NCBI GenBank assembly: GCA_007134695.1
Contig: SLKI01000012.1
Coordinates: 1 to 64,000 of the forward strand
DNA: 64,000 nt
Reading direction: 5' to 3'
DNA from: Balneolaceae bacterium
Lineage (GTDB): Bacteria; Bacteroidota; Rhodothermia; Balneolales; Balneolaceae
Positions 4,072 to 54,333 of this stretch are shown here, piece by piece (positions within the stretch are counted from its first letter, which is position 1; every line of letters begins with the position of its first letter). A model generated the notes under the pieces. That model did no database searches. It worked only from the letters and a program-made list of their open reading frames with translations, and was not told where the DNA came from. A program made the translations under genes and the position numbers.

Positions 4072-6249
4072 TCACAGTCCGTACCAGCGGATTCCATGCT
4101 CTCCATCGACTTTGACCACGAGCCGGTCACCCATTTCGAAATCCACCCGGCGCTGATCGGTAAAGACCCAGTCGACTTCGCCATCTATCACTCTTCCGAT
4201 CTGCAGTACCAGATCATGACTTCCCGGTTCCAGATCAATCTCTTCGAGGCCGCTGCTGTAACCGCGCCGGAAAATACCCCGCGGCCTGTAGTTTTCCTCG
4301 AAGATAGACTCACCGTTTAAATCCACCCGCATCACCACATCCGTTCTGCGTACCACTCTTTGGGTATCCTGACGCTGCATATGGCGCAGTCTGCCGCTAT
4401 CGTCCTCTTCTTCGGCATAGACCGGTGCTCCCTGCATCTTCAGCGAAACGACCAGTTGCGAGGTGCGTTCCGGCATCGGCATCCCCGAAGCGCTCAGCCA
4501 GACTGTTATTCCGCCGACCAGTCCGATAATCAGGGTGCCGACGAACGCTGATTTCAGCAAAGAGCTCTTTCCGCGCTTTTTCGATCTCCCTTTCTCTCCT
4601 CTTGTTCTGAAGCTATCGGCGGCATCCAGAAATTTCTGAAAGTCGGGCTTATCCATTTTCAGAAAGAGTAACCGATCCATTTCAAACCGGTCTTTTCGAA
4701 GTTCCGGGTGTCTCTCCCCTTCAATCCGGCTTCCGAGCCAGTCGGCCCCGAGACGGAAATCCGGATCCGATTCACATCCCCCCACCAGCACCCCTTCAGC
4801 TCCTTTTTTAAGTGCCCGTTCGATCAGGGTAGGGTGAACCCAACCGGCACACGGCAGCGTACAGACCAGGTAACCCGGCATCTCCGGGCATTCACCGGTT
4901 TCCGGATCGATGGTCAGCCGGCTGCCGGCACTGTTGCCGCAAACAAACGCCACATACCTGCCCTCCAGGGATTGATCCGCCTCCTCCAGCCAATGGTCGA
5001 GCTTGCGCCGGATCTCCCACGGCGAGAGCCCCGGGTATTCGATAGCCACCGGATCGCATGAACCGACGCAAATACCGCATGAAACGCAGACCGCCGGATC
5101 GATCCGGGCTACCATCTCGCTCTTTTTCAAGCTTCCCTCTTCCCTCGGCAGCATCGAAATTGCGTTGTAAGGGCAATCCTCAAAACATTGCCGACAGCCA
5201 TTGCACTTGATCTCATCTACCCGGGGAGTGATCGATTCTTTTCTTCTGGCCATCACCCATGGAATCGAGATCAGGATCACAAAAACAACCAGGCAGAGGA
5301 GCCAGAGCGTCCCCGCCTGAAGCCGTTCCGTCAATATCAGCGGCAGCAGATAGAAGTAGTCGATCGTTACATTTTCCGGATGACTCATCAGGTCGGCACG
5401 CTCTCCGATATCGGCCGGTGCGATCAGAGAGATCACGATCAGCGAAACAGTTAGCACCATCGAAAACCGAAAACCGGTAAAAAAGAGTGGACGGTTTAAA
5501 CGGGATACATGAAGCCAGATGGCGATGCAGAAACCGATCGGAATGAGCATATGCAGGAAAAAGACGATCAGAAAAAGAACCGAATTGAAACTGTCGTCTG
5601 TTAAAAATGATGCCTTCAACGGTTCGGCGAAGAGCGGCAGCTGATCCAGCATTCGAGCCGTGGCTGTGGCAATCATCGCCGCACGGTCATCCCACACCAG
5701 CCAATAGCCGAGCCACCCGTCAAACCAGATAATCGCCAGACCCACGATACCGGTCACCCATGCCAGCCATCGCGACCCGGTAAACCGGCCGGCAAAAAAG
5801 ACCTTGAATGCATGAAAAAGGACAAACAGAATAAAAGCATCGGAGCTGTATTTGTGCAGACTCCGCATCAGCTCCGCCGTGTAGGGTTTTTCAGACATCG
5901 CTGCTACCGAGTCGTAGGCAAGATGTACACTCGGACTATACCAGATTAGCAGGGCAAACCCCGTCAGCACCGCCACAACAAACATAAAATTGGCGATCGC
6001 ACCCGACTGGATAAACGGATGATACTCCTCCGGGATCATACGCCGCGTTATTCCATCGAGCTTTCGGAACCAGCCATCCACTCTGTCGAGCAGTTTTCGC
6101 CCCCTCATCGAGCTGTCGGGGCCGGCCTCCGAAGCCTTGACGACATTGGTTTTGAACTCCTTCCACTGCCAATATGTTTCGTCGGCTATTAGAGGCTGTT
6201 TGTCCGAATCTTTTTCAAAATCCGATCCCTTCTCATTCTGCTTTTGCAT
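4072..6249 (-). CDS. Cytochrome b / 2x[4Fe-4S] ferredoxin / MvhD-like fusion protein
   Basis: A 725-residue multidomain membrane redox protein. Residues about 75-335 resemble cytochrome b of bc/b6f complexes, with two H-x13-H pairs (H132/H146 and H233/H247) able to hold two b hemes. Residues 349-398 carry two [4Fe-4S] motifs, C-x2-C-x2-C-x3-C and C-x2-C-x2-C-x3-C. Residues about 430-545 resemble the MvhD/FrhD delta subunit, with conserved cysteines at about 437, 463, 467 and 492. There is then a membrane anchor (about 565-587) and an exported C-terminal beta-rich domain of about 130 residues that I do not recognise. It is the last gene of the heme-copper operon, 80 bp after the SCO gene. It may pass electrons from a ferredoxin- or Hdr-like donor or quinol to the reductase; the partner is inferred only from context. 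Confidence 0.85.
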   Translation of the reverse strand: MQKQNEKGSDFEKDSDKQPLIADETYWQWKEFKTNVVKASEAGPDSSMRGRKLLDRVDGWFRKLDGITRRMIPEEYHPFIQSGAIANFMFVVAVLTGFALLIWYSPSVHLAYDSVAAMSEKPYTAELMRSLHKYSSDAFILFVLFHAFKVFFAGRFTGSRWLAWVTGIVGLAIIWFDGWLGYWLVWDDRAAMIATATARMLDQLPLFAEPLKASFLTDDSFNSVLFLIVFFLHMLIPIGFCIAIWLHVSRLNRPLFFTGFRFSMVLTVSLIVISLIAPADIGERADLMSHPENVTIDYFYLLPLILTERLQAGTLWLLCLVVFVILISIPWVMARRKESITPRVDEIKCNGCRQCFEDCPYNAISMLPREEGSLKKSEMVARIDPAVCVSCGICVGSCDPVAIEYPGLSPWEIRRKLDHWLEEADQSLEGRYVAFVCGNSAGSRLTIDPETGECPEMPGYLVCTLPCAGWVHPTLIERALKKGAEGVLVGGCESDPDFRLGADWLGSRIEGERHPELRKDRFEMDRLLFLKMDKPDFQKFLDAADSFRTRGEKGRSKKRGKSSLLKSAFVGTLIIGLVGGITVWLSASGMPMPERTSQLVVSLKMQGAPVYAEEEDDSGRLRHMQRQDTQRVVRRTDVVMRVDLNGESIFEENYRPRGIFRRGYSSGLEEIDLEPGSHDLVLQIGRVIDGEVDWVFTDQRRVDFEMGDRLVVKVDGEHGIRWYGL

Positions 6250-6329
6250 CGCACTTGCTTCGATTCACCTTTATTCGTGTCGAACCCTATCCCTTTAAAG
6301 ATGGTAGATCTCGATTCAGGATCTGCCGG

Positions 6330-7271
6330 TTACCCGTCTGTTCTCTGTTCGCTCAAGTTTTCCGGCCTCTCCTCTTCGATCAATGTTCGCAATGCCTTGG
6401 TCATCCACTCCTCCTGGCGTTCTCCCAGCGTAAATCGAAATGCGATCTCGCCTTCACGATCTACCAGGTAGAAAAGGTTGGCGTGGTCGATCTCTCCTGT
6501 ATCCATATTCTGAGCACGTGCCACACCGAGCCGGTCGAGAACCTGGTGAACCTCATCCGGATCTCCGGTCAGCATATGGGATTTGTAATTGTCCAGTCTG
6601 TAGAATTCAGAAATTCTGCGAAGCAGATCGGGAGTATCTTTTTCCGGATGCATGGTTACCGCCAGCAGTACAACCTGTTCCAACTCATCCGGGCTTAATC
6701 GGTCCAGAACCCGTTTGGCCTGGTCGAGGATCATTGGGCATGTATCGGAACAGGAAGCATAGACGGATGTTAGCAGTACCACACGGCCGCGAAAATCTTC
6801 AAGACGAACCAGCTTTTCATGCTCATTGATCAGTTCGATCGGCGGTGGAGTTTGACTGATTCGCAACACATCGGCTCGAAATTCGAACTCCTCCTCATCC
6901 GGAGCATCTGCCATCAGCGGAAAGGTGAGAGCGATAGCACCAACGAGTGCAAATGAAGCCGCGGCATATCCTTTTGCCAGAAACGGCTTCATCCACACTG
7001 TTTTCAATGGTTCATACCAGACCCAGGAGATAATCAGGGCCAGGATGATCGGATTGACCGTGTAAGTGATCAGGTAGATCGACTGCATGCTTCCGGATTC
7101 CGGATCATACCCGAAACACCACACCCTGAAATCTTCGGCAAAAGCACCCCACGCCGAATCTCCCGCCGGCATAAATGCCATCACCATCATCAGCACCCAG
7201 AAGAGCGCCAAGGTGAACAGCATGAAGCTGGGAAAACGCCAGGTTGTAAAAAAACGCTCAATCCGTTTCAT
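6330..7271 (-). CDS. SCO1/SenC-family copper chaperone with N-terminal membrane domain
   Basis: A 313-residue protein. The N-terminal ~120 residues hold about three hydrophobic segments (about 15-35, 68-86 and 100-120). The C-terminal thioredoxin-like domain has the copper/redox motif C174-SDT-C178-P and the third ligand His263 (DHANLFYLVD). SCO proteins deliver copper to the CuA site of subunit II, and this gene lies between subunit I and the cytochrome b fusion of the same operon. Typical SCO proteins have a single anchor; the extra multi-span N-terminal domain is unusual. Family assignment is strong. Confidence 0.9.
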   Translation of the reverse strand: MKRIERFFTTWRFPSFMLFTLALFWVLMMVMAFMPAGDSAWGAFAEDFRVWCFGYDPESGSMQSIYLITYTVNPIILALIISWVWYEPLKTVWMKPFLAKGYAAASFALVGAIALTFPLMADAPDEEEFEFRADVLRISQTPPPIELINEHEKLVRLEDFRGRVVLLTSVYASCSDTCPMILDQAKRVLDRLSPDELEQVVLLAVTMHPEKDTPDLLRRISEFYRLDNYKSHMLTGDPDEVHQVLDRLGVARAQNMDTGEIDHANLFYLVDREGEIAFRFTLGERQEEWMTKALRTLIEEERPENLSEQRTDG

Positions 7272-7315
7272 CTTCTAATGGTTCGCTACTGTTTTATCGA
7301 TTGTCTTCAGCAGGC

Positions 7316-7382
7316 TTTCGCACTGCTGCATTTCCATATGTGTTCAAAAGTTTTTCGCACTGCTGCACTTTTAACATATGTG
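7316..7382. repeat. Short direct repeat in the subunit I-SCO spacer
   Basis: TTTCGCACTGCTGCA is repeated exactly at 7316-7330 and 7353-7367. Each copy is followed by a related tail ending in CATATGTG, giving a repeat unit of about 28 bp with a 37-bp period. It occupies most of the 140-bp gap between the subunit I gene and the SCO gene and lies in no supported gene. It could be a local duplication or a processing element; no function is evident. Confidence 0.7.
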
Positions 7383-7411
7383 AATAGGGCGTTCCGTTCT
7401 GCTCAAATCTT

Positions 7412-9142
7412 CTATCGAATGTGCCACAAGTCGGCCAGTGCCGCCCAGTTGGCAAAATAGTAGATCGCAAAACTGAGCAGGAATATGAGAACCAGAACAA
7501 CCGTTCCGGGAGTCTTTATATGCTTGTAATCCTTGCCTTCCTCCTCATAACCCCGGCTGATCAGATCGTCGGTCATCTTCTGAGCTTCCGGTGTTTGCCA
7601 GGTCGGCATCTTTTTGCCCTTGAGTGAGGGGCCGAAAAAGACCGCGGCAACAACCAGAAGGATAAACAGAAGCAACCCGATAAACGCCAGAATACCACCT
7701 ATACCGAGTATACCCAGCATGATGTGGGCCACCGGATCAAAACCGGTTTCGAGCGTCGCACCGCTGAAATCGCTATCGTAGGTACGCCGCGGTACTCCGT
7801 AGGTTCCGGCAAACGACATGCCGAGCGACATGATGACGATCCCGCCCCCAAAGATCCAGGGCTGGATACGAGCCAGGCCTTTCAGATAGAAATCTTTCTG
7901 GAAGATGAGGGGAACTACATAGTAGCAGAGCCCCATAAAGGCCAGCGATGTCCCTCCAACCACGGTAGCGTGGAAGTGGCCCGGAATACGCAGCGTATTG
8001 TGAGCCATAATGTTGATCTGCTCCGTGCCCAGAGTTACACCGGTAATGCCGCCGATAAATCCGAAGATGATTGCCGAAAGAGCGACCGCAGAAAACCCGG
8101 GGTCTTTCCAGGGGAGTCTGGCAAACCAGCCGAATATTCCTTTGTTAAACCCTTTTCTCCGCATGGCAACCTCCATCGAGGCCGGAACAGTATAACCGTG
8201 AATCATCGATGCGAGCACTGCCAGGTACATCGCGTAGGAGGTGTTCCACATTTTCCACTCGGCACTGAATCCAGGATCTACCAGCAGGTGATGTGCAGCG
8301 GCCAGATTGATAAATAGGATATAGAGGATAAATGCAGCCCTGCAGACCGTTTCGTTCAACGGTTTGGCTCCGGTACTCATCGTAGCGATGAAATACCAGA
8401 CGGCCACCATGGCAGCTACATTGATCTGCTGAGAGTGGTGGCCGAGCCCCCACCAGAAAAGCCGGTAAACACCGGGATCCATCATCTCCGTCCAGCCCAT
8501 CGACCAGAAAAAGGTCGGTACAAGGGCAATCGCTCCGTGAACCAGCGCAACCACCGCAATGATCGCAGCGGTAGCCGCCCCAAACGTTACCAGCGGCATC
8601 GAGCCCTCATAGGTCTTGTTCTTCTTGGCGATATAGAGCGTTGCAAAGAAATTGAAGCAGACGATCAGTGCTCCGACCGCAAAAAGTATAATCCCCAAAT
8701 AGAAGAGCGGGTGCGCCTCGAGAGGCGGGTAGGAGGTTAATAACACATCCGCCTGGCCGGCAAACATGATGTAGTTTGTGGCGATCGCTCCGATTGTCAT
8801 CAGCACAAGAGAAACATATGCCAGTTTCTTCGAAAACAATCTTGTATTGAGCAGTGTCGTGCTGGCAAAATAGAGAATCGCCATCTCCAGGAAGATGATC
8901 CAGAAGACTAGCATGTTGACACCGTGTACCGTCAGCATCCGGTAATACCAGACATCGCTGAGCAGCATCACATTGGACCAGCGGGTCAGGGCTAATAGAA
9001 GTGCGGCGACTGCTCCGACCAGCAGAAATATAACGGCAAGAACTGCATTCGCCTTCACAAACCATTCAGCCTTTCGGAAAATATTCAACCCCGTGGTATT
9101 ACAGACCCTATATTCATCAGTTGTAGCAGTTTGCGTATTCAT
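7412..9142 (-). CDS. Heme-copper reductase subunit I lacking the active-site Tyr (eNOR-like NO reductase candidate)
   Basis: A 576-residue polytopic protein of the heme-copper superfamily. It keeps heme ligand H73, CuB ligands H235 and H284/H285, and the H389-x-H391 pair for high- and low-spin hemes. In oxygen reductases of the ba3 type the helix VI motif is G-H-x-x-x-Y; here it is G-H-H-S-Q-Q, so the Tyr that cross-links to the CuB His is Gln239. Loss of this Tyr is known in NO-reducing members of the superfamily, and a Gln is, as I recall, typical of the eNOR group described from Rhodothermus. The CuA subunit II is 18 bp upstream, and a NsrR-like regulator is divergent from the operon, which supports NO reduction. 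Not proven: an atypical oxygen reductase remains possible. Confidence 0.85.
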   Translation of the reverse strand: MNTQTATTDEYRVCNTTGLNIFRKAEWFVKANAVLAVIFLLVGAVAALLLALTRWSNVMLLSDVWYYRMLTVHGVNMLVFWIIFLEMAILYFASTTLLNTRLFSKKLAYVSLVLMTIGAIATNYIMFAGQADVLLTSYPPLEAHPLFYLGIILFAVGALIVCFNFFATLYIAKKNKTYEGSMPLVTFGAATAAIIAVVALVHGAIALVPTFFWSMGWTEMMDPGVYRLFWWGLGHHSQQINVAAMVAVWYFIATMSTGAKPLNETVCRAAFILYILFINLAAAHHLLVDPGFSAEWKMWNTSYAMYLAVLASMIHGYTVPASMEVAMRRKGFNKGIFGWFARLPWKDPGFSAVALSAIIFGFIGGITGVTLGTEQINIMAHNTLRIPGHFHATVVGGTSLAFMGLCYYVVPLIFQKDFYLKGLARIQPWIFGGGIVIMSLGMSFAGTYGVPRRTYDSDFSGATLETGFDPVAHIMLGILGIGGILAFIGLLLFILLVVAAVFFGPSLKGKKMPTWQTPEAQKMTDDLISRGYEEEGKDYKHIKTPGTVVLVLIFLLSFAIYYFANWAALADLWHIR

Positions 9143-9160
9143 ACGTACACTATTTTCTGT

Positions 9161-9688
9161 TTATGATTCAACAATGATCCGGCCGGTCATCAAATGATGG
9201 CCGATACCACAGAACTCGTTACAGATGATATTGAACTCTCCGCTCGTGGTCGGAGTGACCGTCATGACATAGTCATATCCGGGCAAGACATGCACATTCA
9301 TGTTGAGCGGCAGTATCGACAAACCGTGTTGCAGGTCGACCGACGAAACATGTATACGATAGGTCTGCCCCTCTTTCAGCTTCAATACAGGGTACCAGCG
9401 CCACATCTGCCCCATCAGATAGGCATCTCCTCCCGGCGGCGGTTCAACAATAGGTACTCCGTTGACCTCATCAACCTGATGGGCGTCGACAAATTGATTG
9501 ACCCGTTCCATAAATGCGGCCGGATCTACTTCGTACGTTTCGCTCGGTGCGTTCTGTTTGCCCTGAAAATGCCACCAGGGCATAGTGATCGACATGACCA
9601 GGCACCAGACCAGGGCGAGTCCGACCCACATCCTCTCACTTCCGGTCGGCGCACGAAACCAGTTTCCTTTTGGGTGAAAAATGCTCAT
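9161..9688 (-). CDS. Heme-copper reductase subunit II with CuA centre
   Basis: A 175-residue periplasmic subunit with one N-terminal membrane helix (about 20-38) and a cupredoxin domain. The CuA ligands are complete: H121 (DLQHGLS), C156 and C160 in CNEFCGIGHH, H164 and M167. It accepts electrons from a soluble donor such as cytochrome c or a blue copper protein and passes them to subunit I. A CuA site excludes the cNOR/qNOR type, whose partner is cytochrome c or quinol. An acidic insertion of about 45 residues (about 45-90) sits between helix and domain. It lies in an operon with short spacing on both sides. Confidence 0.92.
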   Translation of the reverse strand: MSIFHPKGNWFRAPTGSERMWVGLALVWCLVMSITMPWWHFQGKQNAPSETYEVDPAAFMERVNQFVDAHQVDEVNGVPIVEPPPGGDAYLMGQMWRWYPVLKLKEGQTYRIHVSSVDLQHGLSILPLNMNVHVLPGYDYVMTVTPTTSGEFNIICNEFCGIGHHLMTGRIIVES

Positions 9689-9722
9689 GGTTCCAGTAGT
9701 TTAGTGTTGAATGACAGTTAGT

Positions 9723-9869
9723 TTAAGGCAGTGTTCCCGGAGGTATATTCAATAGTTCGATCAATCCCCAAATGGTGTAGGAGAGAAATGGAACTGTAAT
9801 ACCAAGAATCAATAGCAGCCAAATGTTGTCCATGAACTTCTGGACCGGATGTTTTTTTTCTTCTTCCAT
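9723..9869 (-). CDS. Small single-helix membrane subunit of the heme-copper cluster
   Basis: A 48-residue protein with a charged N-terminus (MEEEKKHP) and one transmembrane helix (about 16-38). I chose the ATG at 9869 because it lies 4 bp after the TAA stop of the upstream gene. A longer start at 9908 would overlap that gene by 35 bp. Its size and position match the small IIa-like subunits of B-type heme-copper enzymes, and the same slot in the ba3-like cluster of this window also holds a 44-residue helix protein. The specific role is inferred from context. Confidence 0.7.
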   Translation of the reverse strand: MEEEKKHPVQKFMDNIWLLLILGITVPFLSYTIWGLIELLNIPPGTLP

Positions 9870-9873
9870 CGCT

Positions 9874-11379
9874 TTATGATTTTTGTGACAAGGTGTAGGA
9901 TTTGACAATCAGATAGATAAATAGCAGGCCTCCGGCGATCGCCAGCAGTCCGCCGACCGCCATCAGCCCGAGGCCGATTACGGCATCCACCGTATAGATC
10001 GACTGATCCTGGCCAAACAGTTTGCGGCCCATACCGGTCATGCCGGCCCATGCGAAACCGATCACAAAGATGACCTGGCCCAGCCCGAACAGCAGTGGCT
10101 GCAGGCTGGTCAATCGCGTGAATTTTTTTCCATCAAGACGAAAACCATACTCTCTGAGAAGAATGAACACCATCACCATGTAGGCGACGGTCACTCCTCC
10201 CAAAGAAGCATGGTAATGAGCCGGAATTAATGTGCTTGAACCTCGTATCATCGCGCCCAGGATAAAGCCGACAACCGTCAGCAGCGCACTGACCAGAAAT
10301 CCATTGAAATAGAGATTACGGAACAGGGAGAGTCGGCCCGATTCTGTTCCGGGTTGCATCTTTTCGGATAGAGTTTCTTTGGATCGAATGACGGCACTCT
10401 TTTCCAGGTGATTTTTTTGCTCTCTTCGCCGGCCGGTTTGCGATCTCCAGATCGCCATTATGCCCAGGATTAAATAGAGGGTAACCACCGGGAAGATGAA
10501 CCAGCGCATCAGTTGCGTAAAGCCGCTGTAATAGAGTTGCGTTGTAGTACCCTGAATCAGAAGAACCGGAGATACAACCGCAGGAAGCGCAAGTGCCAAC
10601 ACGAGCCATCGGTTAATCCTGTCGCTCACCAGTTCTTTACCGGTCAGCTTTTTAAGCAGAATCATCCATACGGTAAGCATGCCTAGTACATTGGCGAACT
10701 GCAGAATGTGTCCGCCGCCCCACATCACCAGTTCAAAGAATGTCTCTTGATGCAGCCGGCCCGGAGTGATCAGATAGGAGGTCACGATCGTTGCGACAGC
10801 AATCAGTACAACAATTCCCGCCGATCGTATCACTTCGGCAGCGTTCGAGGAGTAGAAAGTTGGACGATCTCGTTCCACTCCGGCTGTACGCGTCAGCCCG
10901 GGATTCAGAAATGCACAACAAAACCCGGCAGCCACCATAAAAAGTCCCACCAGAAAAAGTGGGTGGTCGAGTACCGGAATATAGTTGGCCAAAATCGGCT
11001 CCACCCCACGAATGAATACTGGAATAATCATCATAAAAGCACCGATGATCACCAGTTTAAGTCCGGCAATATTCAGTAGCGGGTTGAGCCTGCGTGCAAA
11101 TGTGAGGTAAAGAACCGATAGAAAAGCGTAAAACCAGATAATGAGTGCATAGTCGACATGCAGGACGAGTGATTTTCGGGCAAAATTGGGATCACTGATC
11201 AGCTCCGCAAATCCGGGAGCCCTTGCAAAAACAATGACCGCCGAAAAAAAGCCGGACAATATCAGACTAAAAAGGCCAACCTTGAGCCACTGTTTGGGCA
11301 TGTTCGTTCGAGCCAACGCTCCCGAAACAGTCAAAACCTCCAAAGGTAATTGAACAGCTTTTCGCAGGATCAGAAACAT
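9874..11379 (-). CDS. Degenerate heme-copper subunit I homologue lacking the helix VII CuB histidines
   Basis: About 500 residues and about 12 hydrophobic helices. The heme ligands remain: H75 in VLHVDYAL and H389-Y-H391 in PAHYHASLGG. The helix VI His also remains in WGGGHILQFANV. The His-His pair of helix VII is absent: the aligned stretch reads GTTTQLYYSGF. Without these ligands a normal CuB is not expected. Related Tyr-less homologues occur in several phyla near NO-related genes and are often labelled cytochrome c oxidase subunit I. It is the first gene of the operon, so it may be a heme-only electron-transfer subunit or a divergent NO reductase. The first in-frame ATG is at 11379; homology may begin at the Met at 11301. 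Confidence 0.8.
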   Translation of the reverse strand: MFLILRKAVQLPLEVLTVSGALARTNMPKQWLKVGLFSLILSGFFSAVIVFARAPGFAELISDPNFARKSLVLHVDYALIIWFYAFLSVLYLTFARRLNPLLNIAGLKLVIIGAFMMIIPVFIRGVEPILANYIPVLDHPLFLVGLFMVAAGFCCAFLNPGLTRTAGVERDRPTFYSSNAAEVIRSAGIVVLIAVATIVTSYLITPGRLHQETFFELVMWGGGHILQFANVLGMLTVWMILLKKLTGKELVSDRINRWLVLALALPAVVSPVLLIQGTTTQLYYSGFTQLMRWFIFPVVTLYLILGIMAIWRSQTGRRREQKNHLEKSAVIRSKETLSEKMQPGTESGRLSLFRNLYFNGFLVSALLTVVGFILGAMIRGSSTLIPAHYHASLGGVTVAYMVMVFILLREYGFRLDGKKFTRLTSLQPLLFGLGQVIFVIGFAWAGMTGMGRKLFGQDQSIYTVDAVIGLGLMAVGGLLAIAGGLLFIYLIVKSYTLSQKS

Positions 11380-11476
11380 CAACCCGTTCCGATTTCATGC
11401 ACGGTTAGTTTTCGGCAGCCGCTTCGGCCGAATAGTGAGCTACGAGCACAAGAAGGAGTGACAACCCAACCCTTCT

Positions 11477-11498
11477 TAATAGACAACTATGTCTATTA
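11477..11498. promoter_or_regulatory. Operator 1: perfect 8-6-8 palindrome
   Basis: TAATAGAC - AACTAT - GTCTATTA, both 8-bp arms exactly complementary. It lies about 100 bp upstream of the heme-copper operon ATG and about 190 bp upstream of the divergent Rrf2 gene. The same core (AGAC-N6-GTC) recurs at 11510, 25263, 25293 and 54582. It is probably bound by the adjacent Rrf2 regulator; this is inferred from location. Confidence 0.75.
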
Positions 11499-11509
11499 TA
11501 TCACTCTTT

Positions 11510-11531
11510 CAATAGATACTCAAGTCTATTG
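11510..11531. promoter_or_regulatory. Operator 2: near-perfect 8-6-8 palindrome
   Basis: CAATAGAT - ACTCAA - GTCTATTG, one arm mismatch. Its centre is 33 bp (about three helical turns) from operator 1, which suggests cooperative or same-face binding. It ends 9 bp before a TCTATATTG box and would overlap the upstream promoter element of the Rrf2 gene, as expected for autoregulation. Confidence 0.7.
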
Positions 11532-11540
11532 AGGATTTTT

Positions 11541-11550
11541 TCTATATTGT
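11541..11550 (+). promoter_or_regulatory. Candidate -7 box of the Rrf2 gene
   Basis: TCTATATTGT resembles the TAnnTTTG box of Bacteroidota-type promoters and lies just after operator 2. The promoter of the 602-residue gene at 25366 has the same layout, with TCTATCTTG 7 bp after its operator. Prediction only. Confidence 0.4.
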
Positions 11551-11690
11551 GCACCCTGTTACCATTCGCTGAATCCAGCAGTTTTGGCACTCGATAATAC
11601 CTGCATTTAAAAACTGTGAGATGAGGTCGAATTTTATGACGGCGATTGAACCACTCATACGATAAAAACTGACGACGGAATTGAAACACC

Positions 11691-12131
11691 ATGTTTCTGA
11701 ATCAAACTTCTCATTACGCATTGCGGGCGATGACCGGGCTGGCAGTTTCCGACCCCGAAAACCCGATTCGATCCAGGGAACTGGCAGAAAAAACCGATGT
11801 ACCCTCTCACTATCTCTCCAAAATCATGCGAAAAATGGTAGAGGCCGGTTATGTCCGCTCACAAAAAGGCCATGGAGGCGGATTTGTGATGAATATCGAA
11901 CCGAAAGAGCTTAGAATAATCGATGTATTGACCGCAGCCGGTTTCGATATGGAGGATCAGCCTTGCGTTTTCGGCTGGAGCCAGTGCAGCAGCGACAACC
12001 CCTGCCCGCTGCATCCCGTCTGGAAACGCCTCAAGGATTGCTTTAACGACTGGGCTTGTCATACAACGTTTGAAGAGGTACGGCAGGGAGGTGACGAAAT
12101 TCAGTGGGAGGAGTTTCGGGTTTCAGACTAA
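11691..12131 (+). CDS. Rrf2-family transcriptional regulator, NsrR/IscR-like
   Basis: A 146-residue protein. It has an N-terminal winged helix starting NQTSHYALRAM and continuing through SRELAEKTDVPSHYLSKIM. Next is the typical QKGHGGGF wing, and then three cysteines C92-x6-C99-x5-C105 able to hold an iron-sulfur cluster. NsrR proteins have very similar spacing and sense NO through this cluster; IscR has C-x5-C-x5-C. The gene is divergent from the NO-reductase-like operon, with two palindromic operators between them. The likely role is a redox or NO sensor controlling that operon and itself, and perhaps the promoters at 25.3 and 54.6 kb. Family secure; the signal sensed is inferred. Confidence 0.88.
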   Translation: MFLNQTSHYALRAMTGLAVSDPENPIRSRELAEKTDVPSHYLSKIMRKMVEAGYVRSQKGHGGGFVMNIEPKELRIIDVLTAAGFDMEDQPCVFGWSQCSSDNPCPLHPVWKRLKDCFNDWACHTTFEEVRQGGDEIQWEEFRVSD

Positions 12132-21208: not shown

Positions 21209-23758
21209 TCAAAACGAGTAGGAGAGAGACAAGTGAACGTTTCGTCCGGGCCCCGGCATCGAATTTACATTCAGGTGATCCGTATAGAACCGATTCAGCA
21301 AGTTTTCAACACCCGCCTGCAATCGAACTCCATCAGCCGGAGCAAACCGGACAAAAAGATCCCAGAGCAGATATCGGTCTGTCGCGGCCTCCAGGCTATT
21401 CTGTGCGGCTATTCGGTTCTGGGCGGCAGCCCACCTCAGGCGGCCCTGTACACCAAAACGCTCACCTCGCCTCTGTAAGCTCATCTGGCCTTGCAGCGGA
21501 GGAATCATCGGAAGGGGTTCCTCCAGCTCAATATGTTCTCCAACAACCCACGATGCGGACCCTTCCGCCCGCCAACCTGGCGATAGCTGCACCCGCAGAT
21601 CCGCTTCAAACCCGGTGAGTAATGCCCGCCCCAGGTTTTCATAGCGCTTGAAAAGAGCGTCCACACGTTCTCCGGTAATGAAGTCGTTCAACCGGTTGAC
21701 CCAGACCGATAGCGAACCGTCCCAGGCGGACTCCCCGCCTTCCATAGACAAATAAAGTTCCGCCTGGCTGCTCCGCTCGGTCCCGAGCCCCGGATTTCCG
21801 TGATAGAAAAACCCGTCGAGCGGCTGATAAACGTAATAACCGTAGAGCTCCATATGCCCCGGAAGCCGGGTTCCCTCATTCAACTTGAGCCCTGCGGCAA
21901 ACCGCTCCGAAAAATTTCGTTCCAGTTCCAGGCCCAGCCGATAACCGGTCTGTTCCGGTTCGACTTCCACAAGCCCCGGGTATTCCGCCCGGAATGTTGC
22001 AACTGCACGCTCATCTCGCAACCGGTAGAAGCCCTGCTCAATCCGGCCATTCCAACCAATGATCCAGTTTTCAAATCCGAAATATCGGTAACCTGCCGAC
22101 AGGGAGACTCTGCGGTCTGTGAGATCTCCCAGGTTGAGCAGATACATCTCACTTACATCCGGATCTATATGAATCATCTTCATATCACCGAACGCCTCCA
22201 GCCGGTAGGCCTCCAGTTCAACCGATAACAGGTGTGATCCGCTGAGCAACCGTGCTTCGCTGCTGAAACCGGCTGTCAGCGTCTCTCCATACATCGGCAT
22301 ATACATATTTTGCATCACCTCCCTGGAGGCCACATCTCTTGTATAATCATCCATCCAGTGAGCCACCCGGTTTAGGTAAAGGTTGGTCTCCACCTTGCGC
22401 AGTACTCCCGAGTTCACTCGCCAGAGATGACGCAGGCCCCCGATATGTGCATCGGCTCGCCGGGTGTCCATCAATAAGGAGGGATATCCGATCCTGCCCG
22501 CAAAATCCCCGATATAGCGGAGTGTCAGTTGGTGACTCTCGTTCGGCTGAAAGAGGACAGAAGTGGTCAGATTCCCCTTTTCAAGCTCTGAACCGGTGAT
22601 AGCCAGTCCGCCGCCTGCATGGAGATTGCCACTGTTGCGATAGGTGCCGGAACTCCGGACCGCCCACTTCTCACCGCCATATCCGGCCGAACCCTGGTAG
22701 ACCTGCTGGCCCGATACGGTATGAAACCCGATCTCGCTTCGTCCGCTCCATCCCGTTGAAAGCTCCGGCCGGCGCATCACAAAATCGACTGAGCCCCCCG
22801 GCACTCCATTCATCTGAAGTTCATCCATGCCGCCGCGATTCAGTTCGATCGACTGAAGATTGTCGGTTTCGATATAAGCGGTAACCGGGTCCATCCCGTC
22901 GACACAGGCGGGAGTAACGCGCATACCGTCGAGTGTTACATCCAGCCGATGGTCTCTCATTCCCCGAACAACCGGATCCCTGGCAAAATTTGTCCGGGTC
23001 ACCAGATGAACTCCGGATGCGGCCGACAGATGATCCTCGACCGGTCTTGTTCTCTCTTCACTGTAGAGCGCAGAGAAGGGACGCCCCTGTGATCCAGCCG
23101 TAACGATCAGCTCTTCGGAAATTACCTGTGCCGGTACCAGAGACACGGTCAGCTGTTCAATGTCATTTACATTATCGACAACCAACCGTCTGGTCTGATA
23201 TCCGATATGGGTGACGACCAGTGTTATTTCAAGCTGATTGACAGCTGCTACTGGCTGGCCGACTGCAGCTGTGGTTGGTACAAATGATGTTTCGGGCTGA
23301 TCGGCAGCAGTTTTGATCGGCACAATTGTCGGTTTGCACTGTCCGATTGATGTTTTGGCCTTATCTACAGCTGATTCTGGCGATTCGGTTGCTGATTCAG
23401 ATTGTCCCATCTGCAGATCCGACCGTTTCAAACTGATTGTGAATCGGCCGTCTCTGTCGCTTATGGCACCATCACCAGATTCTGCAACAAGAATATGAGC
23501 ACCGTTAATCGGAGCACCGGTTTCTGCATCTATCACAACACCTGCGATCCGGAACTCCTGCTTGCTTTGCATCGGTTGATCTGTCCGCTTCTCCGTAACC
23601 GGGGGTTTTATCTCCTGAATTCCTGCAACTTCTGCCGACAGCAGTGAAAAGATTGCCAGTAATATTGGAAAAGTTCTCATCAGGCTATTCAACTTCAATC
23701 GCCTGTAACCGCTTTTTCGTTCTGATCCAGTCAAGATTACCTGTTTCCGTTTCATCAT
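21209..23758 (-). CDS. TonB-dependent outer-membrane receptor, probable copper uptake
   Basis: 849 residues. A long basic n-region, then a signal peptide (LLAIFSLLSAEVAG), a carboxypeptidase-regulatory-like domain (IAGVVIDAETGAPINGAHI, ending VTHIGYQTRRL), a plug domain (GMRDHRLDVTLDGMRV, GGSVDFVMRR) and a beta-barrel ending in SLSYSF. The start at 23758 is supported by a GGAG just upstream. An insertion of about 55 residues, rich in repeated A/T-x-QP elements, splits the regulatory domain. It is the third gene after a small cysteine protein and a Met/His-rich lipoprotein, a set that suggests copper import in this phylum. A terminator-like hairpin separates it from the lipoprotein gene. The substrate is inferred, not shown. 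Confidence 0.88.
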   Translation of the reverse strand: MMKRKQVILTGSERKSGYRRLKLNSLMRTFPILLAIFSLLSAEVAGIQEIKPPVTEKRTDQPMQSKQEFRIAGVVIDAETGAPINGAHILVAESGDGAISDRDGRFTISLKRSDLQMGQSESATESPESAVDKAKTSIGQCKPTIVPIKTAADQPETSFVPTTAAVGQPVAAVNQLEITLVVTHIGYQTRRLVVDNVNDIEQLTVSLVPAQVISEELIVTAGSQGRPFSALYSEERTRPVEDHLSAASGVHLVTRTNFARDPVVRGMRDHRLDVTLDGMRVTPACVDGMDPVTAYIETDNLQSIELNRGGMDELQMNGVPGGSVDFVMRRPELSTGWSGRSEIGFHTVSGQQVYQGSAGYGGEKWAVRSSGTYRNSGNLHAGGGLAITGSELEKGNLTTSVLFQPNESHQLTLRYIGDFAGRIGYPSLLMDTRRADAHIGGLRHLWRVNSGVLRKVETNLYLNRVAHWMDDYTRDVASREVMQNMYMPMYGETLTAGFSSEARLLSGSHLLSVELEAYRLEAFGDMKMIHIDPDVSEMYLLNLGDLTDRRVSLSAGYRYFGFENWIIGWNGRIEQGFYRLRDERAVATFRAEYPGLVEVEPEQTGYRLGLELERNFSERFAAGLKLNEGTRLPGHMELYGYYVYQPLDGFFYHGNPGLGTERSSQAELYLSMEGGESAWDGSLSVWVNRLNDFITGERVDALFKRYENLGRALLTGFEADLRVQLSPGWRAEGSASWVVGEHIELEEPLPMIPPLQGQMSLQRRGERFGVQGRLRWAAAQNRIAAQNSLEAATDRYLLWDLFVRFAPADGVRLQAGVENLLNRFYTDHLNVNSMPGPGRNVHLSLSYSF

Positions 23759-51522: not shown

Positions 51523-52149
51523 TTACAATTCATTCAATACCGATCGAATGTCGTCGGCCACCTTGCTGCGGTTAAGATCACTTCCCTGATAATGTCTTCG
51601 GATATTTCCATCACTGTCAACCAGTGAAATCCGGTCTGTATGATCAATAAAATAGACCGGGGTTCCTGAATCTGTAAACCGTGTCGGCGTTTTCACCGTT
51701 CGAATTTCCAGCCGATCCAGAAGAGAGTTGACTACCCGCCGTTCTCCGGTCAGAAAGGTCCATCTCGACTCATCAACCTGAAAACTTTGGGCATATCGTT
51801 TTAATACTTCGGGTGAGTCACGGTCCGGATCGAAACTGATACTGACAAAGTGTACCCTCTCATCGTTCAGTTCTAAATCGATCGCTCGCATATTGTGGGT
51901 TATCATCGGACAGATATCGGGACAATAGGTGTAAACATACCCGATCAACATCACGTTTCCATTGAAATCATCGGGAAATGTAACCTCTTCACCGTTTTGA
52001 TTGACCAACTCAAAGCGTTCGTCGCCGAGTCGATCGACAACCGCCAATTGGTCACAACTTGTTAAAGTCAATACAATGATCAACAATAAAACCGAAACTG
52101 TACAATACCGCTCAACATTCATATCGGAAAAATAACTCCTTGCCTGCAA
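51523..52149 (-). CDS. SCO1/SenC-family lipoprotein
   Basis: Up to 208 residues; the Met at 52122 (MNVERYCTV) is the likelier start because it directly precedes a lipoprotein signal ending LTLTSCDQ. The thioredoxin-like domain has the copper motif YTYCPDICPMI, SFDPDRDSPE and the third ligand His in FIDHTDRISLVD. It is 16 bp downstream of subunit I of the oxygen reductase and presumably loads its CuA site. It is a different, single-anchor type from the SCO at 6.3 kb. Confidence 0.92.
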   Translation of the reverse strand: MQARSYFSDMNVERYCTVSVLLLIIVLTLTSCDQLAVVDRLGDERFELVNQNGEEVTFPDDFNGNVMLIGYVYTYCPDICPMITHNMRAIDLELNDERVHFVSISFDPDRDSPEVLKRYAQSFQVDESRWTFLTGERRVVNSLLDRLEIRTVKTPTRFTDSGTPVYFIDHTDRISLVDSDGNIRRHYQGSDLNRSKVADDIRSVLNEL

Positions 52150-52165: not shown

Positions 52166-53851
52166 TTAACGTAATGGCGCCGGGTTTTCCGGACTAAATG
52201 GTGGTGAACCGCCGGCAGTACTTTGCAGTACATCAATAATCACCGGAGTGTAGGCCAGAACAATGATGATGATGGCCGCAATGACCCACGGCTTGAAATT
52301 TTTCAGCCAGGGGACATCCTCGTCGTGATACGGTTCAGTGGTCGGAAATTCAAGCGTCGCTTCGCCCTCTTTCTGTTTTGCAAATACCGTTGCAAAGAAA
52401 ACGACGGCAAATATGACAACCGACAGTGTCATAATCACCCCGCCGACAACACTGATATCTATATAGCTGATCCATTCAGGCTGATAGAGAGCGCTGTCCT
52501 GATTGGCATAGGATGGACCGGTATTGGTTCTTCGCGGCATACCGATCAGGCCGCCCCGCATCATGCCCCAGGAGAAGATGAAAACGCCGATCGTCCAGAT
52601 ATAGGGCATCGAGAGCGCCCACCCTTTCATCTTGACCGGTTTGTTCAGATAGCGGCTCAGCAGATAGAGACTCATCCCCATAAACGCCAGAAGCACAGGG
52701 CCTGCAACTGTCAGGTGAAAGTGGCCGGGAACCCACGCCGTATTGTGAACTGCGGTGTTCAGCTGATAGGAGGCGTTTACAATACCGCTGATCCCTCCAA
52801 AAATGAAGATCACCAGTCCGGCAATCAGATAGGAGAAGAGCCACCGGTCACGGTCGAAATAGGGCAGCTTGAACATCCACCCGAACAACCCTTTGCCGCC
52901 TCGTTTCCGGCCGGCATACTCCAGGGAAGCAGCGAGCGTAAATGCAGTGATGAGGCTGGGCAATGCCACCATGAACGTGAAAAATCCATGGAGCAGCTTC
53001 CACTGTGCGCCGATCGCCGGGTCCATATATTGATGGTGTGTGCCGACCGGGATCGAGAACACGATAAACATCATAAAAACCAGGCGCCCCGCCATATCGG
53101 AATAGAGCTTTCCGCCGGCCAGCTTTGGCATATAACTGTAATACATCACATAAGCGGGCAGGAGCCAGAAGTAAACCAGCGGATGGCCGAAGAACCAGAA
53201 AAGGGTTCGCGCCAGCATTGCATTGATCTCATTCACCAGCCCCATCGACCAGGGGAGCAGCATAAAGAGAATCTCCACTGCTACGGGAATCGTGGCGATC
53301 TGCCAGACGATAAAAGTGGTAAAGATTCCAACGACCGAAAGCGGCGTTTTTTCTCCCGGGTTTTCTCTTCGCCACTTCAGATAGAGAGGTATCCAGTTCC
53401 AGAATGCTACCCAGGAACCGACCACCAGCAGAGTCAGCCCGATATAGAAGAGGGGGTGTGCTTTGAGCGGCGGATAGAAGGTGTAGAGAACGGTCGCTTC
53501 TCCGATGTAGATCATCAGGGTGGCCAGGGCGGAACCGACCAACATCAAAATGCCGGACACCCAGGCCCAGGTCATATTGAGTTTCATCCTGAGTGCGTAG
53601 GAGACGACAGCATTGCCGAATGCGACTGCAAAAAAGGTGGTGAAAACAAGGGCGTTCAGAACCCCGTGCATGGTGAGGCCTTTGTAATAATCGGGGCCCA
53701 TGAAGGGGTCGCTCTGAATGATGCCGGCGCGGAATAGGGTCTGCATCAATCCGCCATACACCCCGAGAACAAGAAAAATCATCGGGATGATGAGAAGAAC
53801 GCCCATCAGGTAGCGGTTCGACTTGTCGATCTTCATTACATAACTTTTCAT
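52166..53851 (-). CDS. ba3-like (B-type) cytochrome c oxidase subunit I
   Basis: 561 residues, about 13 helices. Ligands are complete: H62 for low-spin heme, H223 with cross-link partner Tyr227 in GHPLVYFWLLPAY, H272/H273 (VGTHHQYMDP), and the HFH pair in VPGHFHLTVAG. The HPLVY motif and the helix II sequence resemble Thermus ba3 oxidase. It reduces O2 to water with proton pumping. Its first codons overlap the end of subunit II by 4 bp. The intact Tyr contrasts with the Gln in the 7.4-kb homologue. Confidence 0.95.
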   Translation of the reverse strand: MKSYVMKIDKSNRYLMGVLLIIPMIFLVLGVYGGLMQTLFRAGIIQSDPFMGPDYYKGLTMHGVLNALVFTTFFAVAFGNAVVSYALRMKLNMTWAWVSGILMLVGSALATLMIYIGEATVLYTFYPPLKAHPLFYIGLTLLVVGSWVAFWNWIPLYLKWRRENPGEKTPLSVVGIFTTFIVWQIATIPVAVEILFMLLPWSMGLVNEINAMLARTLFWFFGHPLVYFWLLPAYVMYYSYMPKLAGGKLYSDMAGRLVFMMFIVFSIPVGTHHQYMDPAIGAQWKLLHGFFTFMVALPSLITAFTLAASLEYAGRKRGGKGLFGWMFKLPYFDRDRWLFSYLIAGLVIFIFGGISGIVNASYQLNTAVHNTAWVPGHFHLTVAGPVLLAFMGMSLYLLSRYLNKPVKMKGWALSMPYIWTIGVFIFSWGMMRGGLIGMPRRTNTGPSYANQDSALYQPEWISYIDISVVGGVIMTLSVVIFAVVFFATVFAKQKEGEATLEFPTTEPYHDEDVPWLKNFKPWVIAAIIIIVLAYTPVIIDVLQSTAGGSPPFSPENPAPLR

Positions 53852-54333
53852 CGCTCACCTCCCGGAAGATCCGCTCTTGCCAGATCCTCTTCATTGTCGG
53901 TAATGATGATGCGGCCTGCCATCAGATGGTGCGCCGCTCCGCAAAATTCATGACATGCAAAAAAGTACTCACCGGGCTCATTGAAGGTAACCGGTATATA
54001 GTTGATCGTTTGCGGGACCGCCATCAGGTTTACGTTTTTCCCTTCAATTTTGAATCCGTGAATGATGTCGCGGGAAGTAACGTAAAGGTGCACGGTCGAT
54101 CCGACCGGAAGTGTGACTGAAGACGGCTCAAATGCCCACATCCGGGTTATCATATGGAGCTCATATTCATTTTCATCAATCTGAAAGAGTGTATCCGAGG
54201 TAAACGGCTCCACATCGGTAATGCATGTGGGAACCTCGATCCCTCTGGCCACTTGTGCATAGATGAGCGCCAAAAAGAACGCGGCAAGAAGTAAGCCGCT
54301 CAATCCGAGTGCCAATTTTTCCGATTTATCCAT
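53848..54333 (-). CDS. ba3-like oxidase subunit II with CuA centre
   Basis: 161 residues. One N-terminal helix (about 8-28) and a cupredoxin domain with H92 (RDIIHGFKIE), C127, C131, H135 and M138 in CHEFCGAAHHLM. It receives electrons from a soluble donor, possibly the azurin-like lipoprotein encoded downstream. It overlaps subunit I by 4 bp and starts 2 bp after the small subunit gene. Confidence 0.94.
   Translation of the reverse strand: MDKSEKLALGLSGLLLAAFFLALIYAQVARGIEVPTCITDVEPFTSDTLFQIDENEYELHMITRMWAFEPSSVTLPVGSTVHLYVTSRDIIHGFKIEGKNVNLMAVPQTINYIPVTFNEPGEYFFACHEFCGAAHHLMAGRIIITDNEEDLARADLPGGER

Follow-up and report, generated by a model that had tools for sequence, protein, structure and literature searches.

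The window analysed here is a 64,000-nucleotide stretch of contig SLKI01000012.1 from Balneolaceae bacterium (assembly GCA_007134695.1), and it carries an operon that with high probability encodes the core of an eNOR-type nitric oxide (NO) reductase, for which we predict reduction of NO to nitrous oxide (N2O). An earlier note on this DNA had inferred a CuA-type NO reductase with extra subunits, and the open reading frames were found where it had put them: five genes on the minus strand (4072–11382) and, divergent from these, a gene for an Rrf2-family regulator (11691–12131, plus strand). In the order of transcription, the five genes encode a CuB-less heme-copper protein of 502 residues, which we call pseudoSUI, the CuA subunit II, subunit I, a Sco protein and a 725-residue fusion of cytochrome b, [4Fe-4S] and FlpD modules.

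Subunit I (7412–9142, minus strand, 576 residues; PF00115, 241.7 bits) contains the heme and CuB histidines His73, His235, His284, His285, His389 and His391, and position 239 is Gln (codon 8426–8428, minus strand), both as the earlier note had read them. In an alignment with ba3 oxidases, Gln238-Gln239 stand where these have Val-Tyr, i.e., Gln239 takes the position of the tyrosine that is cross-linked in O2 reductases. The six histidines and both glutamines were invariant in 83 of 83 subunit I sequences, as were Asn241, Tyr250, Tyr303, Ser312 and His315 across the homologues. Since Tyr250 corresponds to ba3 Tyr248 by alignment, part of the K-type proton path may persist. Previous work defined eNOR by Gln at the tyrosine site and listed one predicted proton channel for it, with Asn at this site in sNOR, Asp in gNOR, Asn in CuANor and Glu in cNOR and qNOR (PMC8756737). 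The family is identical to ba3-a1 (PMC8879329), which is devoid of the tyrosine and whose operon carries Sco (PMC6431628), and PMC11388526 cites eNOR as biochemically characterised. Because Gln at the tyrosine site is the published mark of eNOR, the core is, judged from its sequence, a new member of this known and only lately recognised family. The partner subunit II (9161–9688, minus strand, 175 residues) consists of a membrane anchor and a cupredoxin domain (PF00116, 22.5 bits; CoxB, 43.4 bits, below the cut-off). Its CuA ligands His121, Cys156, Glu158, Cys160, His164 and Met167 are complete, as had been claimed, and invariant in 79 homologues, and a cupredoxin subunit II gene adjoins subunit I in 81 of 83 loci.

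The earlier note had proposed to place subunit I in a heme-copper superfamily tree with eNOR, sNOR, gNOR and ba3 references. Its separation from O2 reductases stood: the Q-type sequences split from the Tyr-type B and A oxidases with a support of 0.996, in one tree by one method (FastTree LG) that holds no named sNOR, gNOR, nNOR or R. marinus eNOR references. The window subunit I lies in the Q-type clade with sequences from Thermus, Thermomicrobium, Defluviimonas and one genus of its own class; genomes of this class with a 44–45% identical Q-type subunit, which may be Rhodothermus, group with it. What the window enzyme has in common with eNOR (ba3-a1) are the Gln in place of the Tyr, the full set of metal ligands, the CuA subunit II and the tree placement. 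In contrast to the two-gene form of eNOR on Thermus plasmids and in the same-class genus that may be Rhodothermus, however, it is accompanied by Sco, the cytochrome b/Fe-S fusion and a CuB-less paralogue. With the B-family ba3 cytochrome c oxidases, for example that of Thermus thermophilus (1XME), it shares the fold, the six histidines, the CuA subunit and Tyr250, but it has no cross-linked Tyr and falls into a separate clade. The reaction proposed, 2 NO to N2O, is that of cNOR and qNOR, although the window enzyme has a CuA cupredoxin subunit rather than a heme-c subunit or a quinol-type fusion. Two ligand exchanges were seen elsewhere. The eNOR of Thermus plasmids has HFK for the H-x-H motif, which puts Lys at the low-spin heme ligand equivalent to His391, in three of three sequences checked (L112 8983–10665, L113 8983–10668, L114 5983–7668). 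In an Azospirillum plasmid heme-copper protein with a CuA-like partner (L121 2341–4053), Tyr replaces both one CuB His (SLYHM) and the proximal His of heme a3 (PGYFH).

The genomic surroundings, namely nearby NirS, the Thermus nic context and the host NosZ, favour a function in NO reduction. NirS (cytochrome cd1) family genes were found in 11 of 83 loci, an assignment confirmed by Pfam on locus L107 (PF02239, 399 bits) and on the Thermus gene; 17 of these loci had hemerythrin genes and 15 had Crp/Fnr-type genes. In T. thermophilus NAR1, a plasmid region that also carries nar genes holds nirS (369 bits), a radical-SAM (nirJ-like) gene, the CuA gene and subunit I, next to an nsrRST-like trio that encodes an Rrf2, a DUF542 and a cupin-like protein; within the 49 kb viewed, there is no annotated norC or norB. 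The nic cluster of strain PRQ25, which has a cNOR, was described as nirS, nirJ, nirM, norCBH and nsrRST and is under the control of a Thermus NsrR (PMC5748679). Because the Q-type enzyme adjoins the same nsrRST-like trio, without annotated norC or norB, we read NAR1 as a case of one NO reductase replaced by another, the Q-type enzyme standing in the place of cNOR. The host genome encodes NosZ (893 bits). In a sample of its class, NosZ occurred in 20 of 23 eNOR genomes vs 79 of 173 non-eNOR genomes (Fisher p = 2e-4, shared ancestry ignored), and in the congeneric relatives G112 and G155 nosZ lies about 12–13 kb from subunit I. Together with the Gln at the tyrosine site and the tree, the association with NirS and NosZ and the nic context support the CuA-type NO reductase with extra subunits of the earlier note.

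Alternatively, the operon could encode a microaerobic B-family O2 reductase that has lost its Tyr, perhaps releasing incompletely reduced products or drawing on a different electron source, with NO turnover as a side reaction. The nearest solved relatives of subunit I are indeed ba3 O2 reductases, genes for aerobic oxidases and their assembly are found close to some pseudoSUI copies, and with further COX1-family proteins the host has the equipment for aerobic respiration. We nevertheless consider this improbable, as not one of the 83 homologues has the Tyr and both glutamines are invariant, as the Q-type clade stands apart from the Tyr oxidases, as the loci are linked to NirS and NosZ, and as PMC11388526 cites a relative as an NO reductase that has been characterised. 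Several points weigh against an NO reductase with the accessory parts described here. Loss of the Tyr alone leaves residual O2 reduction possible, and what the cytochrome b fusion and the CuB-less protein do is inferred. In the host assembly (2.7 Mb, 91% complete) there was no NirK match to supply the NO, and the best NirS match had 21.0 bits, below the cut-off. Finally, an ordinary Tyr-type ba3 oxidase operon is present elsewhere in the window (subunit I 52166–53851, CuA 53848–54333, Sco 51523–52149), and respiration therefore need not rely on the eNOR.

The six-gene block kept its synteny in every Balneolaceae-family locus that has it with enough flank, which places the locus well above chance. 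This set of six genes was found in the relatives examined over their full length, namely G011, G002, G019, G017, G092, G112 and G155 and several named Balneolaceae contigs; Fodinibius halophilus 2W32 (L036) has these genes too. In one set of these relatives, identity was 79–91% for subunit I, 72–84% for CuA and 39–60% for pseudoSUI. A scan of named genomes gave 80 loci from roughly a dozen phyla; because two Balneolaceae peptide patterns served to select them, their frequencies are not population frequencies. Among 43 fully flanked loci, CuA was present in 42, Sco in 39, a cytochrome b/Fe-S module in 42 and pseudoSUI in 23. Of these parts, the Thermus and Rhodothermus-like loci have CuA and subunit I only, and the extra subunits are therefore dispensable for the core reaction. 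Their conservation elsewhere suggests that eNOR often has its own parts for electron input and maturation.

The Sco/SenC protein (6330–7271, minus strand, 313 residues; PF02630, 82.5 bits) is membrane-anchored, with N-terminal hydrophobic segments and a CxxxC motif (SCSDTCP), and presumably delivers copper to CuA. The last gene of the operon (4072–6249, minus strand) encodes the fusion of cytochrome b, two [4Fe-4S] motifs and FlpD-MvhD (PF00033, Fer4 and PF02662 matches), in which the C-terminal domain sits behind one further hydrophobic segment. In an alignment of 21 sequences, His132/His146 and His233/His247, each pair with 14-residue spacing, eight cluster cysteines and three FlpD cysteines were invariant. 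With four histidines and eight cysteines kept, the fusion likely binds two hemes b and two [4Fe-4S] clusters. Its cytochrome b module resembles the selenite/tellurite cytochrome ExtP (97.2 bits), and its Fe-S and FlpD modules resemble HdrA2/MvhD of the FlpD/HdrA type, all with NCBIfam scores far below the cut-offs; unlike in these systems, the modules here are fused and tied to eNOR. Some betaproteobacterial eNOR loci add a cytochrome b that is fused to Fer2 (ferredoxin), FAD-binding and NAD-binding domains (L099 8558–10546). The conserved cytochrome b modules suggest a dedicated electron route to the enzyme, of which direction and donor are inferred. At L028 4864–7111, the fusion is split into two overlapping open reading frames (176 and 578 residues) near the junction to the C-terminal domain.

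The second PF00115 protein of the operon, pseudoSUI (9874–11382, minus strand), was not named explicitly in the earlier note. It is the first operon gene in Balneolaceae, and its homologues suggest a start at the ATG at 11379. It scored over the COX1 threshold (36.3 bits vs 34.8). All 37 homologues aligned keep His75, His225 and Gln228, and the 35 that reach far enough keep His389 and His391. Of the CuB ligands, the first His is kept in the family and the His-His pair is absent throughout the alignment. Searching the PDB with the sequence gave no match. An AlphaFold2 model (pLDDT 89.1, pTM 0.89) had ba3 oxidases as its top matches in a Foldseek search of the PDB (TM 0.66, E 2e-8). In the FastTree LG tree, the pseudoSUI sequences formed a clade of their own, outside the eNOR clade, with a support of 1.000. 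A split or decayed subunit I was rejected as an explanation, given that the protein is full length, models well and has invariant ligands across phyla. We found no literature description of the pseudoSUI family, nor of an operon extended by a CuB-less protein and with an operator to itself, in a survey that did not cover the main eNOR paper.

A genuine pseudoSUI was found somewhere in about half of 25 eNOR genomes that were searched whole. In a gammaproteobacterial sample of 369 genomes, 45 had pseudoSUI, 32 had eNOR and 26 had both (odds ratio 72, p 3e-22, shared ancestry ignored). The remaining 19 of the 45 pseudoSUI genomes had no detected eNOR, and pseudoSUI as an eNOR-specific protein was rejected on this ground. 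Help in assembly or in electron transfer for CuA-type enzymes fits these data best, with no choice between the two. Tentatively, and with a little less than even confidence, we regard pseudoSUI as an undescribed heme-copper branch that has kept both heme sites and lost CuB, and as a non-catalytic partner, acting in heme handling or as electron relay, of CuA-type enzymes and above all of eNOR in several phyla. Such a protein would make functions of the heme-copper fold beyond gas reduction directly testable.

One could also imagine that pseudoSUI is the real partner catalyst with NO chemistry on its heme, and that subunit I serves as an electron donor or proton-pumping module. Its place as first gene, the heme ligands, His225 and Gln228 kept wherever covered and its presence in 26 of 32 gammaproteobacterial eNOR genomes would agree with this. 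However, the CuB His-His pair is missing, pseudoSUI diverges faster than subunit I (39–60% vs 79–91% identity), 20 of 43 fully flanked loci have no nearby copy, and 19 of 45 gammaproteobacterial carriers are without eNOR, which leaves this a most improbable reading. For pseudoSUI only, and compatible with an eNOR core, a role as an assembly factor that passes or shields heme in the maturation of CuA-type heme-copper enzymes in general is a doubtful but serious possibility. The pseudoSUI-only loci adjoin Sco-, CtaA- and oxidase-like genes, with Cox11/CtaG- and CyoE-like neighbours (L233, L241) named by eye from sequence starts, and CtaA genes are present in 13 eNOR loci. Such a general assembly role competes with the reading as an electron-transfer protein, and about half of the eNOR loci have no pseudoSUI nearby; moreover, none of the assembly factors known to us has the fold of a heme-copper oxidase.

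The divergent regulator (11691–12131, 146 residues) is an Rrf2-family protein (PF02082, 95.9 bits; TIGR00738, 98.3 bits, over the cut-off). The cysteine motif that the earlier note had pointed out, C92-x6-C99-x5-C105, was found to be invariant in relatives. The further proposal of an NsrR-like regulator, in contrast, appears weak. The protein scored 26.7 bits with the NCBIfam model for NsrR (cut-off 182) and 57.9 bits with that for IscR (cut-off 207.6), although the NsrR equivalog model may miss distant NsrR proteins and the score is a weak test. Position 8 is His, and His, Gln or Glu in relatives, whereas Asp8 is the fourth cluster ligand of S. coelicolor NsrR (PMC5411485). The consensus of an NsrR operator of the E. 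coli type had no matches with up to three mismatches in the window. A different palindrome, AATAGAY-N6-RTCTATT, was found instead, in two exact copies between the divergent genes: AATAGAC-AACTAT-GTCTATT at 11478–11497 and, 33 bp from it, AATAGAT-ACTCAA-GTCTATT at 11511–11530, neither assigned to a strand.

The host assembly has no exact site besides these two, and a control with the reversed pattern gave none. All 11 intergenic regions compared carry the palindrome in perfect or imperfect form, mostly in two copies. Exact sites occurred in 8 of 9 operon-bearing genomes and were confined to the operon in 7 of these 8, with a further site only in G188. Sites with two mismatches were barely more frequent than in the control (37 vs 30). 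Because exact sites are all but confined to the operon and two-mismatch sites stay near the control level, the Rrf2 protein most likely serves this locus as its dedicated, local regulator. Judged by position and conservation, it would bind the putative operators, and NO sensing by an Fe-S Rrf2 protein is possible; the twin operator provides a ready in vitro test of this. With NsrR, it has the family, the three cysteines and an adjoining nor gene in common, but by the features tested, i.e., score, Asp8 and operator, it does not appear to be an NsrR. That it is a true NsrR over a wider NO stress regulon seems unlikely to us: the three conserved cysteines and the Thermus nic cluster under an NsrR (PMC5748679) speak for it, yet the score, His8, the lack of an E. 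coli-type site in the window and the near-absence of its own operator outside the operon do not agree with such a regulon.

Taken together, CuA might receive its electrons either from a c-type cytochrome or through the dedicated cytochrome b conduit and hand them on to the low-spin heme. At the heme/CuB site, two NO could then be converted to N2O without the Tyr chemistry that is required for O2 cleavage. Sco would load copper, the CuB-less paralogue would aid assembly or electron transfer, and the Rrf2 protein would act as an NO or redox sensor via its Fe-S cluster and control this operon only. The accessory-protein roles and the Rrf2 signal are much less certain than the core. The host, with NosZ and no NirK or NirS detected, may thus take NO via N2O to N2. 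Since the usual annotation of eNOR genes is cytochrome oxidase, counts of NO and N2O turnover in bacteria of this kind come out too low.

In the host, a PF00115 search gave four proteins over the threshold, one A-type-like, one ba3-type and the two of this operon, plus two weak fragments. On host contig C87, two short frames at 21673–22463 (L005, L006) match COX1 weakly; this stretch, for which a split NorB was considered, showed a different open reading frame in translation, and nosZ is about 7 kb away.

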